DNA of 21,744 nucleotides from a virus: positions 1 to 21,744 of IMG/VR virus record IMGVR_UViG_3300044730_000438, one strand, 5' to 3'. Shown here in pieces: positions 1-14,875 of the stretch. The notes beneath the pieces are model-generated. The model was not told the DNA's origin. It was given only the letters and a program-made list of their open reading frames with translations, and did not search any database. Position 1 is the first letter of the stretch. Each line of letters opens with the position of its first letter. The translations under genes and the position numbers were made by a program.

Positions 1-125
1 GTCGGCAGGTGGAAGGTCTGGGAAACTGCTGGGTGGGTCACCTTGTCGTGACTGCCGCCGGGTTTGATGGTGGCGCCTGCCTTGAGAATCAGGCGGCGTG
101 CTTCACGGACCTTGATAGGGGTCAT
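1..125 (-). CDS. HicA-like toxin, N-terminal part (runs off window)
   Basis: Only the first 41 codons are visible; the gene continues leftwards past base 1. The visible part has a helix with R10-R11 and then G-G-S-H at residues 23-26, followed by a Thr-His-Pro and an aromatic/Pro strand. This matches the core of HicA-type mRNA interferases, small dsRBD-fold toxins whose catalytic His lies in a GSH motif. The start at 125 lies 29 nt past the -10 box of its cassette. An in-frame ATG at 155 overlaps that -10 and is unlikely to be used. No HicB antitoxin is visible upstream. The fold call is from motif only. Confidence 0.55.
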   Translation of the reverse strand, partial: MTPIKVREARRLILKAGATIKPGGSHDKVTHPAVSQTFHLP

Positions 126-3793: not shown

Positions 3794-3946
3794 CTAGACG
3801 AAGATATCGACTTCCTTGATGCTAACATCGACATCTTCGTCACCTTCGAGTTCTAATATTTGCTTCCAATCCATAGATTCTAGATCTAAATCATCATAAC
3901 AATCGATATCTAATGTAACACGTACTAGGCGTTTGTGTGTTATCAT
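3794..3946 (-). CDS. Acidic miniprotein, conserved cyanophage type (50 aa)
   Basis: It starts MITHKRLVRVTLDIDCYDDLDL, then MDWKQILELEGDEDVDV and the end KEVDIFV. Alternating beta strands and very many Asp/Glu residues are seen. I recall close relatives in cyanomyoviruses but no function. It lies 6 nt after the stop of the 46-aa gene and ends with TAG two bases before the cassette stem-loop. Codons are unusual: GAT CTA GAT runs create CTAG tetramers that are rare elsewhere in the window. Confidence 0.85.
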   Translation of the reverse strand: MITHKRLVRVTLDIDCYDDLDLESMDWKQILELEGDEDVDVSIKEVDIFV

Positions 3947-3952
3947 GATACG

Positions 3953-4093
3953 TTATGCATAATGCCTGTATGCTAGGTCCTGATAATCATGCGAATCACG
4001 TGCATAATCATCATCTAGATCTAGTGTATAATGCTCATCTAGATCCGCGTAATCGTTCGTGTATGTATAGTCGAAGTCGTAATCGTCGTACAT
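3953..4093 (-). CDS. Asp/Tyr-rich miniprotein (46 aa)
   Basis: It starts MYDDYDFDYTYTNDYADLDE and ends LAYRHYA. Roughly half the residues are Asp or Tyr, with repeated DLD and DYx motifs. No fold is recognised; a disordered or DNA-mimicking acidic protein is possible, but that is a guess. It is the first gene after the operator/promoter array. A TATAAT box at 4130-4125 lies 31 nt upstream of the ATG. Confidence 0.75.
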   Translation of the reverse strand: MYDDYDFDYTYTNDYADLDEHYTLDLDDDYARDSHDYQDLAYRHYA

Positions 4094-4124
4094 AGCTCGT
4101 CGAGATCGTGTGAGTGACTTGTGT

Positions 4125-4154
4125 ATTATAGCATAGAGCTCGACGAGATTGCAA
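4125..4154 (-). promoter_or_regulatory. Promoter with operator in spacer
   Basis: -35 TTGCAA (4154-4149), 18-bp spacer that contains the palindrome at 4139-4147, and a perfect -10 TATAAT (4130-4125). It points at the Asp/Tyr-rich miniprotein gene. Confidence 0.65.
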
Positions 4155-4258
4155 TAGGTGTGTGCAGGTCTCGTCGAGATTCGTATGATAGTATATATGA
4201 ATCTAGATGCTTCTCGACTAGATTATATGAGAGTCTCGTAACATAATGTCTCGTCGAG

Positions 4259-4287
4259 ATTCTATCATACTCTCATAAGAATGTCAA
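4259..4287 (-). promoter_or_regulatory. Strong sigma70-type promoter flanked by operators
   Basis: Consensus -35 TTGACA (4287-4282), exactly 17 bp, then -10 TAGAAT (4264-4259). Palindromes abut both sides: 4290-4298 just upstream of the -35, and 4250-4258 directly after the -10, over the expected start point. A protein bound at either would be well placed to control it. Confidence 0.8.
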
Positions 4288-4380
4288 GTCTCGTCTAGAT
4301 TTTATGTGAGGGTCTGGGAATTTTTATGGGCGCGGGGGTTGACAAACTGCTCTTCTTATGATACGCTCGCTAAACTCACA

Positions 4381-4514
4381 AGACCCGGAGGCATTTAATA
4401 AGACCTGGAGGGGTTTATAAGCATTCATAAGCATTTAAGACATAAAGACCTGGAGGCATTTATAAGCACTTATAAGCACTTATAAGCACTTATAAGCATT
4501 TAAGACATAAAGAC
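4381..4514 (+). repeat. Nested direct repeats with 10-bp tandem array
   Basis: AGACCYGGAGG occurs at 4381, 4401 and 4446, each followed by an AT-rich TTTATAA-like stretch. A 23-bp direct repeat beginning ATAAGCATTTAAGAC lies at 4427-4449 and 4492-4514. Between them a 10-bp unit, TATAAGCACT, is repeated three times plus one TATAAGCATT (4461-4500), one unit per helical turn. On the minus strand TATAAATG (4464-4457) resembles a T4-type late promoter. Confidence 0.8.
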
Positions 4515-4591
4515 TCAAGCATTCAAAACACCTATTGATTCTCATTATCAAGACATTATTGAGAATGTTACAAAAAACACAATTATATTTT

Positions 4592-4801
4592 TTAATACCT
4601 TTTTTTAATTAAATTTAAATTAACAGGTTGTTGATCATTCCAATGTCTTACTACTCCTGCAATAATAAAGCAATTGGTAATCAGATAAGATACAAAGATG
4701 AATGATCGAATCAATGCTATCTTATCTGACTCCTTATTACACTTGGATGCTTTCTCTCCTAATGACTTTGCCCACAGTCTCCATAGTTTATTATTTCTCA
4801 T
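4592..4801 (-). CDS. Small membrane protein, conserved cyanophage type (69 aa)
   Basis: The basic, tryptophan-containing N-terminus (LWRLWAKSLGEKASKCNKESDK) is followed by one hydrophobic helix (ALIRSFIFVSYLITNCFIIAGVV, about residues 29-51), RHWND and a basic end (KKRY). I recall near-identical small proteins in cyanomyoviruses; no function is known to me. It overlaps the upstream gene by 11 nt and is last before the gene-free region. Confidence 0.85.
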   Translation of the reverse strand: MRNNKLWRLWAKSLGEKASKCNKESDKIALIRSFIFVSYLITNCFIIAGVVRHWNDQQPVNLNLIKKRY

Positions 4802-7873: not shown

Positions 7874-8392
7874 AGTGAGTTCCTCCATTATGATTTGTTT
7901 TGGTAGAAAGTTCCAGCAATAATAACTGCTACTGAACGTGATCTTATCATTTGGACGACCATCCGGACTGTGAAACTTCATCCGTTTGTCGAACATCAAC
8001 AGTTGCAGATCTTTGTCCTTGAACAGTTGCTTTGGAGCACTATCATTCAACCAAGTATTGGTCATAATCAGAGCAAAAGGTTTATTGAATGATAGTGCTC
8101 GTTCAAAGAACTTTCTCTTGTTTGTGAACGGTGGATTCGATACAATCACATCCCATTGTCTTGGTTCAAATGTAAGAAAGTCCTGCCCATACTTGATGTG
8201 AGTGAATACAACCTCATTTTGTTCTGAAATCTGCTTAACAAACTCACTATCAATAGTATCAAACGGACACCAGACAATAACATCTTTGGGAATATATTTG
8301 AGAATGGGCGTCACACCGTAATTTGGTGTGTAACATTCGTCATTATTCCCTACAGAATACATCAGTTTTCCACTATCGAATTCTTGTACCAT
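7817..8392 (-). CDS. DNA adenine-methyltransferase-like protein (191 aa)
   Basis: Contains SNPPF at residues 85-89, the NPPF/NPPY catalytic motif IV of N6-adenine (and some other N) methyltransferases. N-terminal NNDECYTP (16-23) and VWCPFD (40-45) probably stand for the cofactor-binding region; no classical FxGxG is seen. Similar phage proteins are often annotated only as hypothetical or as a nucleotidyltransferase. It overlaps the nuclease candidate upstream by 20 nt, so it could be its protecting methylase. The start is the ATG at 8392 (AAGAG precedes it). About 20 C-terminal residues (from VPPSKLAQ) come from cassette 12. Confidence 0.8.
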   Translation of the reverse strand: MVQEFDSGKLMYSVGNNDECYTPNYGVTPILKYIPKDVIVWCPFDTIDSEFVKQISEQNEVVFTHIKYGQDFLTFEPRQWDVIVSNPPFTNKRKFFERALSFNKPFALIMTNTWLNDSAPKQLFKDKDLQLLMFDKRMKFHSPDGRPNDKITFSSSYYCWNFLPKQIIMEELTVPPSKLAQRTGSEARLPL

Positions 8393-8870
8393 TGCTCTTA
8401 ATTTCTTTTTGAGAGATTGTAACACCAATGCGAGGATCTTTTGCAAATCCTTTCTTCTTTTGAGGATATTGCTTTTGAATCTTGGGAAGAAGAATCTTCA
8501 GAACAGTTTGAGCATCAAGTTTCCAAATTTCAGCAATTCTACCACCTTCATATCGTGCATAATAATGATTGGCATACTTTCCAATCTTGTCTTCAATAAT
8601 ATAACGTTCCTGCTCTTCCCAAGTATCCTGAACGCTGATACCATTATAAGTCCCATTGATAGATTTTGCAATGGTAGATTTATATTCTGCTCCACCTTCT
8701 TCATCAATGGCATCAGCACCCGAATAAGTGTCTGCAATTTTATGACCCAAAACTCCTGCCATATGAATCTCACGGGAGCGAGCATAAGAGAATGGATCTC
8801 CCCAACCCTCTTCCTGGCAAAGATCATACATTTGCTCAAAGAGTTGTTGAAACTTTTGTTCGGGGGTCAT
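8373..8870 (-). CDS. PD-(D/E)XK restriction-endonuclease-like protein (165 aa)
   Basis: Residues 51-64 hold GAD (D53) followed after a short loop by E62-Y-K64, matching the D...(E)xK catalytic core of type II restriction enzymes and related nucleases. A helix-rich N-terminal part (FQQLFEQMYDLCQEEGWGDPFSYARSRE) and a C-terminal basic segment (KILLPKIQKQYPQKKKG) could contact DNA. The 165-aa length is short for a type II enzyme but possible. It is directly followed by a methyltransferase-like gene with a 20-nt overlap, and the pair lies between cassettes 12 and 13. Target unknown; alternatives are a homing or repair nuclease. Confidence 0.7.
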   Translation of the reverse strand: MTPEQKFQQLFEQMYDLCQEEGWGDPFSYARSREIHMAGVLGHKIADTYSGADAIDEEGGAEYKSTIAKSINGTYNGISVQDTWEEQERYIIEDKIGKYANHYYARYEGGRIAEIWKLDAQTVLKILLPKIQKQYPQKKKGFAKDPRIGVTISQKEIKSNGTRIR

Positions 8871-11592: not shown

Positions 11593-12369
11593 TTAGTATA
11601 ATGCCTCTAGCAGCGGATTCTGGGGGTCCTGTGCCACTTCCTGAACTGGCACACCATTGATCCTTTGTTGAGCGACCGAAAAGTATTCTTCCTCTCGCTC
11701 AATGCCGATAAAGTTTCTATTTTCTATTTTAGATGCGATTCCAGTGGTGCCAGATCCCATACAGGGGTCCAGTACCAGATCACCCTCATTAGAGAATGTT
11801 CTAATCAACCAACGATAAAGATCTACTGGTTTCTGTGTGGGATGGTATTTTCCTTCACCTTCTGCAGTCTTGAAGTAAATGACACTGCGGGGATACCTCA
11901 ACCCACTATCATTTTTTACATGAACTGCTTTTGTCTGAACACCATATGCTTCAGTATCTCTTACTGCAGTTCCCTTATCATATGGTGTTCCTTGTGTCAT
12001 TTGGGGATTGTATGTTGGTTGCTTCTTATAGAACACTACAATATCTTCATGAGCACGTAGAGGTTGTTTCTTGGCATTCAGATAACCAGTTGCCTTTGAT
12101 TTTTCCCACACCATTGTATACTTGAAGTTCCTATAGTTTGAAGCAATAAGCACGCTTGTAAATGGTTGTGCTGCTGTTGAGATGATAGGGCACGTTGGTT
12201 TGCATATACGATCAACATGCTCCCAAAACTTTGGATAATCAATGATGGTATCCCACTCATTTCTTTTGTTCAGAGTTCCATAAGGAAAATCTGTCAATAA
12301 CAAATCGATGCTCTGGGGAGCAAGATTCCCCAGAACATCGAACATATCATCGTTGAATAATTCAATCAT
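11593..12369 (-). CDS. Type II DNA methyltransferase, beta class (258 aa)
   Basis: Motif IV is TDFPYG (residues 26-31), a variant of the DPPY/SPPY catalytic site. Motif I DPCMGSGTTG follows near the C-terminus, after HPTQKP. The order IV then I, with the target-recognition region between, is that of beta-class N6-adenine/N4-cytosine methyltransferases, which transfer methyl groups from S-adenosylmethionine to DNA. The start at 12369 fuses with the nuclease gene stop (ATGA). Residues from VPVQEVAQ onward come from cassette 16, and the TAA stop overlaps the TATACT -10. Target site unknown. Confidence 0.9.
   Translation of the reverse strand: MIELFNDDMFDVLGNLAPQSIDLLLTDFPYGTLNKRNEWDTIIDYPKFWEHVDRICKPTCPIISTAAQPFTSVLIASNYRNFKYTMVWEKSKATGYLNAKKQPLRAHEDIVVFYKKQPTYNPQMTQGTPYDKGTAVRDTEAYGVQTKAVHVKNDSGLRYPRSVIYFKTAEGEGKYHPTQKPVDLYRWLIRTFSNEGDLVLDPCMGSGTTGIASKIENRNFIGIEREEEYFSVAQQRINGVPVQEVAQDPQNPLLEALY
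11595..11652 (-). promoter_or_regulatory. Stem-loop/promoter cassette 16
   Basis: Consensus stem-loop at 11631-11652 (GTGCCA/TGGCAC), translated as VPVQEVAQ. -10 TATACT at 11600-11595, followed by AACAAGGTACTC. No clear second stem. Confidence 0.8.
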
Positions 12370-12944
12370 TTTTGCAACCAATCAATAAATTTATTATAAA
12401 CCACTTCGTCAAGTTTGAAGTCAGCGCGATAGTCTGCGTTGTAAATAGGGCGCTTCGAATTACGCTTACGATACGGATTAACAAAAAAAATGTTCAGATC
12501 TTTACCAGTGATTTTTTTGAAAAATGCAGGATAATATGCAAAAGCATCTTTACCGCAGGCATTCTGACCAGCAAAAATTGCAAACTCTGCATCATCAGGA
12601 ACATCCGGAGATTGATCAAGTTCAATCAAATCAAAAACTGCACGTTTGAGATAACAAGCATCCAAGTAAGTCTTGGATTCTACCAATTTTTTCAGTACAC
12701 CTTGAACATAAATGTGAAAGTCAACTTGAAGATTCTTCAAGCACCTATTATTAACAATCATGGAACGCTTATAATCATTTTTACGGGCATCAAGATCCAA
12801 TTCTTCACAAGTTCTCAAAGTAAGATTTTCGTAAATAAGACCAGATGCATTCCTTGCTTTACCGCCGCCAAAATTTTTATGAAGATTGGGAAGATCATCC
12901 ACTTCTTTGTTGTAACTTTCAATAATCAAATCAAGATTAGACAT
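12366..12944 (-). CDS. Type II restriction endonuclease candidate (192 aa)
   Basis: Residues 71-91 contain NLQVD (D75) and, after a hydrophobic strand, ES-K91 (E89-S-K91), the D...ExK core of PD-(D/E)XK nucleases; G35xxxE39 may supply the helix glutamate. The N-terminal region has NFGGGKARNASG, possibly a DNA-contact loop. It is followed by a DNA methyltransferase gene with a 4-nt stop/start overlap, the layout of a type II restriction-modification pair. The start at 12944 lies 23 nt past the TATAAT; the ATG at 12959 is too close to it. The methylase would protect phage and host DNA while the nuclease could attack rival phage DNA; that role is inference. Confidence 0.75.
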   Translation of the reverse strand: MSNLDLIIESYNKEVDDLPNLHKNFGGGKARNASGLIYENLTLRTCEELDLDARKNDYKRSMIVNNRCLKNLQVDFHIYVQGVLKKLVESKTYLDACYLKRAVFDLIELDQSPDVPDDAEFAIFAGQNACGKDAFAYYPAFFKKITGKDLNIFFVNPYRKRNSKRPIYNADYRADFKLDEVVYNKFIDWLQK

Positions 12945-14136: not shown

Positions 14137-14703
14137 TTAATTTACTTTTTTAAGAAGAAATGATCCGTCCAAATTATCTACCCATTCAACTCTATCACCT
14201 TCTTTAAGGTCTGCTGCTTCTAAAAGATCATCGGGAAACGTAATACAATATTCATCTTTATCAGTGTCTTCATCTCTGACCACTTCAACAGGAAGAACCC
14301 ATTTTACCACTTTATCTTTCTTCTGATTAGCAACAAGATACTCAAGGTCACTATGCCCCCAAGGTCTCATACCATCATCGGATTCTTCCCAGAATGAAGT
14401 CCAAGACTTTTTACATTCTTGAGATAGGTCATCTTTATCACAAGATTTTTGTGCTTCTTCTGGATAATAAGTTTCTTCCCACTCTTTCCACCCTTGAATA
14501 TGACCTTTACCATTACCATTTAGAAGAGCAAGAAGTTCATAGCAACGACCAGTATGATGCTTAAAGTAATGATATTCTTCATTCACAATACCTTTGATGG
14601 TATCATAAATTTCCTGCGGAGACACTTCCGCAGAAACTAAAGCATCTCTCACCCAAGTTTTTACTTGTTCAAGAGAATGTTTTTTGTATCCAAAGTCACT
14701 CAT
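14137..14703 (-). CDS. Protein with C-terminal AbrB-like domain (188 aa)
   Basis: The last about 40 residues (ITFPDDLLEAADLKEGDRVEWVDNLDGSFLLKKV) form the swapped-hairpin pattern of AbrB/MazE/SpoVT DNA-binding domains, where a conserved LxEGDxVEW stretch is typical. The N-terminal 140 residues are helical and acidic and are not recognised. Such proteins often regulate genes, or act as antitoxins; here either is possible. The start is MSDFGYKKHSLE at 14703, with an 8-nt overlap with the upstream gene. Confidence 0.8.
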   Translation of the reverse strand: MSDFGYKKHSLEQVKTWVRDALVSAEVSPQEIYDTIKGIVNEEYHYFKHHTGRCYELLALLNGNGKGHIQGWKEWEETYYPEEAQKSCDKDDLSQECKKSWTSFWEESDDGMRPWGHSDLEYLVANQKKDKVVKWVLPVEVVRDEDTDKDEYCITFPDDLLEAADLKEGDRVEWVDNLDGSFLLKKVN

Positions 14704-14875
14704 TTTCATACTCCTTGATTGCTTCCTCCATTATAACCTGAAGTTCTTTAGAGGTCAACCCATTCAACCACGCCCAATTTGGGTCTTCTTTGTCCCATTC
14801 TGCAGTATAAGACCCATCATCATTTTTTGTGATTCTGAAACTATCAGTCTCTTGGTTTTGGTTTGTTACATTCAT
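14696..14875 (-). CDS. Small acidic hypothetical protein (59 aa)
   Basis: MNVTNQNQETDSFRITKNDDGSYTAEWDKEDPNWAWLNG is followed by LTSKELQVIMEEAIKEYENE. It pairs a short beta part with a terminal amphipathic helix. It overlaps the zinc-finger frame upstream by 32 nt and the AbrB-tailed gene by 8 nt. No function recognised. Confidence 0.8.
   Translation of the reverse strand: MNVTNQNQETDSFRITKNDDGSYTAEWDKEDPNWAWLNGLTSKELQVIMEEAIKEYENE

Follow-up and report, generated by a model that had tools for sequence, protein, structure and literature searches.

The window analysed here, a 21.7-kb IMG/VR fragment of viral DNA, has its nearest matches among T4-like cyanophages, with S-SRM01 the best, and the genes discussed below are all predicted on its minus strand. 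A gap of roughly 500 bp separates a gene ending at 4592 from a small open reading frame starting at 4093, and the part of this gap proximal to the small frame holds six sites of the CTCGWCGAG family (4096-4298; Table 1). Four of these (sites 1, 2, 3 and 5) are exact and two have one mismatch (CTCGACTAG at site 4 and CTCGTCTAG at site 6), with spacings along the array of 43, 31, 43, 37 and 40 bp. No other match with up to one mismatch occurs anywhere in the window, and 2000 windows simulated with a first-order Markov model never placed more than 2 sites within 203 bp, compared to the 6 observed.

The sites are interleaved with two promoters, P1 and P2; the counterpart of P2 in many relatives is a consensus TTGACA-17-TATAAT promoter with a site in its spacer. 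Downstream, two miniprotein genes open what we take to be an operon, a run of small early-type open reading frames, whose early timing we infer from the kind of promoter and its position. The sequence-only reading of the window had described six palindromes interleaved with promoters, and this held, although the palindrome is perfect at four sites only. Its TTGACA-17-TAGAAT promoter geometry held (minus strand, with sites before the -35 and after the -10), as did its placing of one site within a promoter spacer and of the array before two acidic miniproteins.

Table 1. Features of the array locus, with positions in the window
Feature	Position	Strand	Remark
50-aa acidic protein gene (phrog_12516)	3794-3946	-	second in operon; query for relatives
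46-aa D/Y-rich miniprotein gene (MYDDYD...RHYA)	3953-4093	-	first in operon
Site 1, CTCGACGAG	4096-4104	-	2 bp before first miniprotein ATG; position common among relatives
P2, TTGCAA-18-TATAAT (or TGCAAT with 17 bp)	4125-4154	-	sigma70-type promoter
Site 2, CTCGTCGAG	4139-4147	-	within P2 spacer
Site 3, CTCGACGAG	4170-4178	-	in relatives, often 12 bp after a late-type TATAAATA box
Site 4, CTAGTCGAG	4213-4221	-	immediately after a TATAAT
Site 5, CTCGACGAG	4250-4258	-	begins one base past P1 -10, over expected start
P1 -10 box, TAGAAT	4259-4264	-	17-bp spacer
P1 -35 box, TTGACA	4282-4287	-	
Site 6, CTAGACGAG on sense strand	4290-4298	-	2 bp upstream of P1 -35

Other elements lie around the array. 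Upstream of it, a divergent TTGACA-17 promoter on the plus strand (4339-4367) can also be made out in S-SRM01, in S-SKS1 and at many IMG/VR loci; past this promoter the closest genes are predicted on the minus strand, making its transcript a candidate antisense or non-coding RNA. Tandem repeats around AAGACCTGGAGGCATTTATAAGCA (4380-4515), GGAGG-rich when read as plus-strand RNA, are replaced in the matching region of other phages by different repeats of the same style. An ATTCTCA...TGAGAAT inverted repeat with T-rich DNA after it (4535-4600) is conserved with S-SRM01 and has related sequences in S-T4 and Bellamy; it has no Rfam match, and an Rfam search of the window returned no family at the gathering threshold. 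Elsewhere, the window encodes an N6/N4 DNA methylase (11593-12381, minus strand; strong match) and a PvuII-like restriction endonuclease supported only by a weak Pfam match below the cut-off (8373-8870, minus strand).

The array is conserved in place. Searching with the 50-aa protein alone fetched 32 IMG/VR loci, of which 31 were informative after exclusion of one without upstream DNA (L012). At least two exact sites lie upstream of the gene in 26 of the 31, and four further loci have variant or half-site arrays: L030 with CTAG-containing variants, L036 and L037 with nine half-sites each, and L027 with one palindrome and seven half-sites. L025 is without an exact site and keeps the promoter, with CTCTTAGAG just before the ATG. 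Counting the variant arrays, the position upstream of the 50-aa gene is kept in 30 of 31 informative loci. These counts are not independent because many loci are related, several of them as near-duplicates, so that there are fewer independent lineages than loci. Among cultured phages, arrays are present in S-SRM01, S-SKS1, S-T4 and the type phage P-SSM2, where the array lies at about 66.0-66.2 kb and the promoter is TTGACA-atCTCGActagatctgg-TATAAT. The S-SKS1 array falls within 151.1-151.25 kb. The motif is absent upstream of the distant 50-aa homologues of S-CAM7, Bellamy, S-B05, S-SCSM1 and DSL-LC03. In S-CAM7 a different repeat, CGCAGTA/TACTGCG, is found upstream of the homologue (L159 1099-1340) and is perhaps an operator of another specificity; TTCGTG motifs repeated around promoters in AG-345-F15 (L376 3500-3700) and in L025 (1-120) possibly represent a related half-site family.

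The motif is also specific and clustered. Across the loci retrieved with the protein as sole query, CTCG-W-CGAG is the commonest of the 256 W-centred palindromic 9-mers, occurring 116 times compared to 25 for the next. Whole-record scans give 2-11 exact sites per array genome, nearly all in one to three clusters: the 11 exact sites in the 240 kb of S-SRM01 all fall within three arrays spanning 5.4 kb, a single array holds all 4 in the 188 kb of G001, and G003 has one stray exact site outside its array. The same type of scan found no exact sites in Syn9, S-PM2, S-SSM7 or Bellamy. The additional S-SRM01 arrays (L001 5534-5643 and 2781-2878) are intergenic, and the first continues right up to where translation of the following gene starts. 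Scanning IMG/VR by pattern for pairs of sites found at least 119 stretches. In the part of the genome contigs that a similar scan covered, the contigs with sites belong to bacteria and archaea from many phyla, almost every one has a single spaced pair, and the sole cyanobacterium is Phormidium; a regulon in the host is therefore unsupported, yet not excluded.

Within the arrays, the sites keep a register with promoters. Among 48 distinct TTGAC[AT]-16..18-TATAAT promoters, 12 contain a palindrome between the two boxes; it follows the -35 by 1-3 bp without exception, and the spacer is 17 bp long in 11 of the 12. A site no more than 35 bp downstream of the -10 is present in 13. Seen from the sites, TATAAT is enriched at +16/+17 and -6/-7. 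For T4-late-type TATAAATA boxes, 17 of 98 are followed by a site within 40 bp, and in 11 of these 17 the distance is exactly +12. Relatives also commonly have a site that ends 2-4 bp ahead of the ATG of the miniprotein.

The spacing between sites is helically phased. Across 70 non-redundant arrays (85% cut), spacings peak at 31-33, 42 and 60-67 bp, and the periodogram has its maximum at 10.25 bp (R=0.28, compared to 0.077 for random phases). This phasing is consistent with proteins bound on one face of the helix, a possibility for which there are no binding data. Inherited spacing could contribute, as related arrays that fall below the cut may have it in common through ancestry.

Sites that lie in tandem outside coding sequence, with no more than three arrays in one region, might instead serve replication, as origin iterons, or else partition or recombination, and not be transcriptional operators at all. 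We regard this as very unlikely: cumulative GC skew has no extreme at the arrays of S-SRM01, S-SKS1, G001 and P-SSM2, the promoter register is kept, and across array loci the downstream genes are conserved while upstream neighbours vary, the pattern expected of an operon's own control region.

A different objection arises from the miniprotein gene itself. Homologues of the 46-aa protein are present in S-SRM01, S-SKS1, S-T4 and G001, and in several phages sites run into the gene, where GATCTCGACGAG codes for DLDE; the acidity of the first miniprotein is therefore partly a by-product of the sites. In-gene sites of the relatives encode DLDE/ARD. The repeats could be duplications of a D/L/E-rich gene segment without any binding function, a reading favoured by these DLDE codons. 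It is very unlikely: most sites lie outside the gene, in fixed promoter register and with unrelated flanks, and the motif occurs at other loci as well. Further, the miniprotein gene of the window keeps the DLDE residues but has lost the DNA palindrome, which the non-coding sites retain.

The sites are nearly symmetric in sequence and share an orientation with respect to transcription. Their sense-strand consensus is AATCTCGACGAGA. The commonest single variants, C3->A (20) and G7->T (8), are the same base change in either arm, and double variants number 37, compared to about 21 expected if the arms were independent. A is the central base of exact sites on the sense strand in a ratio of 71:10, and all 46 single half-sites, found in six palindrome-poor records (S-SKS1, L014, L023, L027, L036 and L037), have the sense orientation. 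Because of this A-centre bias and the uniformly sense half-sites, recognition appears to have a direction; the common orientation could also stem from duplication history. Half-sites stand in for palindromes in some lineages, a pattern not expected of a simple symmetric dimer.

This directionality raises the alternative of a stoperator-like system, in which an asymmetric protein would read ACGAGA(T) one way and block both initiation and elongation, the palindrome being a reinforced form. In its favour, the sites are found within promoters and the 5′ UTR as well as in coding sequence and gaps between genes, with the biases just described, and L5-type sites are likewise found in promoters and short intergenic spaces, following the direction of transcription (PMC9283540). 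Against it, most lineages have near-perfect palindromes whose two arms vary alike, the sites form 1-3 clusters rather than being spread genome-wide, and array duplication could give a shared orientation. We consider this alternative unlikely.

An RNA-level element is a further alternative: AUCUC-GAC-GAGAU hairpins, or linear ACGAGAU motifs, would be recognized close to the start codon by a protein that binds RNA. The strand bias of the half-sites and the site 2-4 nt before the ATG would fit, and the palindrome folds as RNA with a triloop, at about -3.0 kcal/mol. However, the sites lie in fixed register inside -35/-10 spacers and are helically phased, a C-to-U change that would preserve pairing is absent from the 36 single variants, among which the pair-breaking C3->A is the commonest, and lineages with half-sites are unable to form the hairpin. 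The spacer position, the helical phasing and the absence of pairing-preserving C-to-U variants favour a DNA-level element and leave little room for the RNA reading.

The explanation that we favour, and consider likely, is that the array comprises operators for one sequence-specific DNA-binding protein that regulates an early-type operon in one group of T4-like cyanophages. Binding, repression and the phage encoding of the regulator are inferred in this explanation, there being no binding or expression data. The protein would occupy the -35/-10 spacer and the start site of host-sigma70-type promoters and so block host RNA polymerase; further copies bound on the same helical face would co-operate along the array, and those located beyond the start, within the 5′ UTR or the coding part, may hinder elongation as a road-block. 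The outcome would be an operon that is shut off or timed during infection. A location between the -35 and -10 of a promoter with full consensus is characteristic of repressor sites. Repression is the probable mechanism, again as an inference without binding or repression data, and activation is not excluded. Several points count against the operator reading: a regulator has yet to be identified, the second and third arrays of S-SRM01 are without a clear sigma70 promoter, the motif is missing upstream of the distant 50-aa homologues, and half-sites take the place of palindromes in some lineages.

An operator array at a promoter cluster, as proposed in the sequence-only reading, is thus supported by in-place conservation, promoter register, helical spacing and restriction to clusters. 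The outcome that would have refuted it, loss of the sites in close relatives with the same downstream genes, was not met, given their retention in nearly all of the loci fetched. Its further suggestion of a dedicated, previously unrecognized regulator remains an inference, as no regulator of the array has been identified. That the regulator is phage-encoded is likewise inferred, and a host regulator remains possible.

Several candidates for the regulator were considered. The AbrB-like protein of the window (14137-14709), named as a candidate by the same reading, failed: it has homologues in S-SRM01 and G001 and none in S-SKS1 or S-T4, and presence in only two of the four array genomes tested makes it a poor candidate. 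A winged-helix family near nine arrays was rejected as well, with no match in 8 of 8 phage genomes tested. A comparison of five array genomes (S-SRM01, S-T4, S-SKS1, G001 and P-SSM2) with five non-array genomes (S-PM2, Syn9, S-SSM7, Bellamy and S-CAM7) revealed no obvious array-specific DNA-binding protein. Among the small early proteins common to array genomes, the only one of note is a 57-aa MazE/AbrB-like protein that shares the phrog_661 domain with the AbrB-like protein of the window. Its model has a pLDDT of 86 and finds MazE as the best PDB match, with a TM of 0.74 but an E of only 0.064. The gene always lies 1.6-6.7 kb downstream of the array and reads the same way in 44 of 44 cases; where a locus extends far enough, 12 of 13 have it. 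DNA-contact positions of AbrB/MazE proteins are usually basic, and the 57-aa protein has no evident basic residues there. It is the best named candidate but a weak and improbable one, because it is strongly acidic and also occurs in phages without an array near it (ACG-2014f, S-CAM7 and Sf-CH8).

An operator array is a known kind of element; here the motif and its distribution are new and the regulator is probably so, with the caveat that novelty is not proven and rests on open-access literature only. No description of the array motif or of the P-SSM2 promoter motifs was found in the open-access literature searched, and palindromic operators are not mentioned in PMC2984593 or PMC3037559; subscription papers were outside the scope of the search, probably including the main cyanophage transcriptome papers.

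Among known systems, the array resembles the operators of MetJ/Arc and MazE/AbrB in offering short tandem palindromes of the kind contacted by small dimeric proteins; on the cyanophage side, however, no ribbon-helix-helix protein is identified, and the conserved neighbour is MazE/AbrB-like by fold only. Similar to the OR/OL-type operators of lambda, several short, roughly palindromic sites lie at the -35, -10 and start of early promoters and are helically phased. The cyanophage array differs in its motif, in spreading as many as six sites across 200 bp, with some of them in coding sequence, and in belonging to a T4-like type of phage with no lysogeny known and no repressor gene identified. The operators and stoperators of L5, a Cluster A mycobacteriophage, are likewise short motifs in promoters and intergenic gaps oriented with transcription, an orientation that matters for their function (PMC9283540). 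By contrast, L5 stoperators are more than 20 asymmetric 13-mers along the genome (PMC9283540), whereas the cyanophage sites are near-palindromes in one to three clusters; of the L5-type criteria, orientation with transcription is met and numerous asymmetric genome-wide sites are not.

Finally, cyanomyoviruses are without homologues of motA, asiA, alt and mod, and because these are absent, the timing of early and middle genes in T4-like cyanophages is unresolved (PMC2984593). A DNA element conserved in P-SSM2, S-SKS1, S-T4 and S-SRM01 gives a direct handle on this control in phages that infect abundant marine cyanobacteria. A bolder reading, which we raise only as a possibility, is that in a lytic T4-like group both early-type and late-type promoters are governed by a dedicated operator/stoperator system that has a direction, is bound by an unrecognized small protein and replaces the MotA/AsiA switch. 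Like the MotA box with AsiA at T4 middle promoters, where a phage-specific element beside the -10 alters the use of host RNA polymerase, the cyanophage site accompanies a promoter, but it does so from within the spacer of complete TTGACA/TATAAT promoters.
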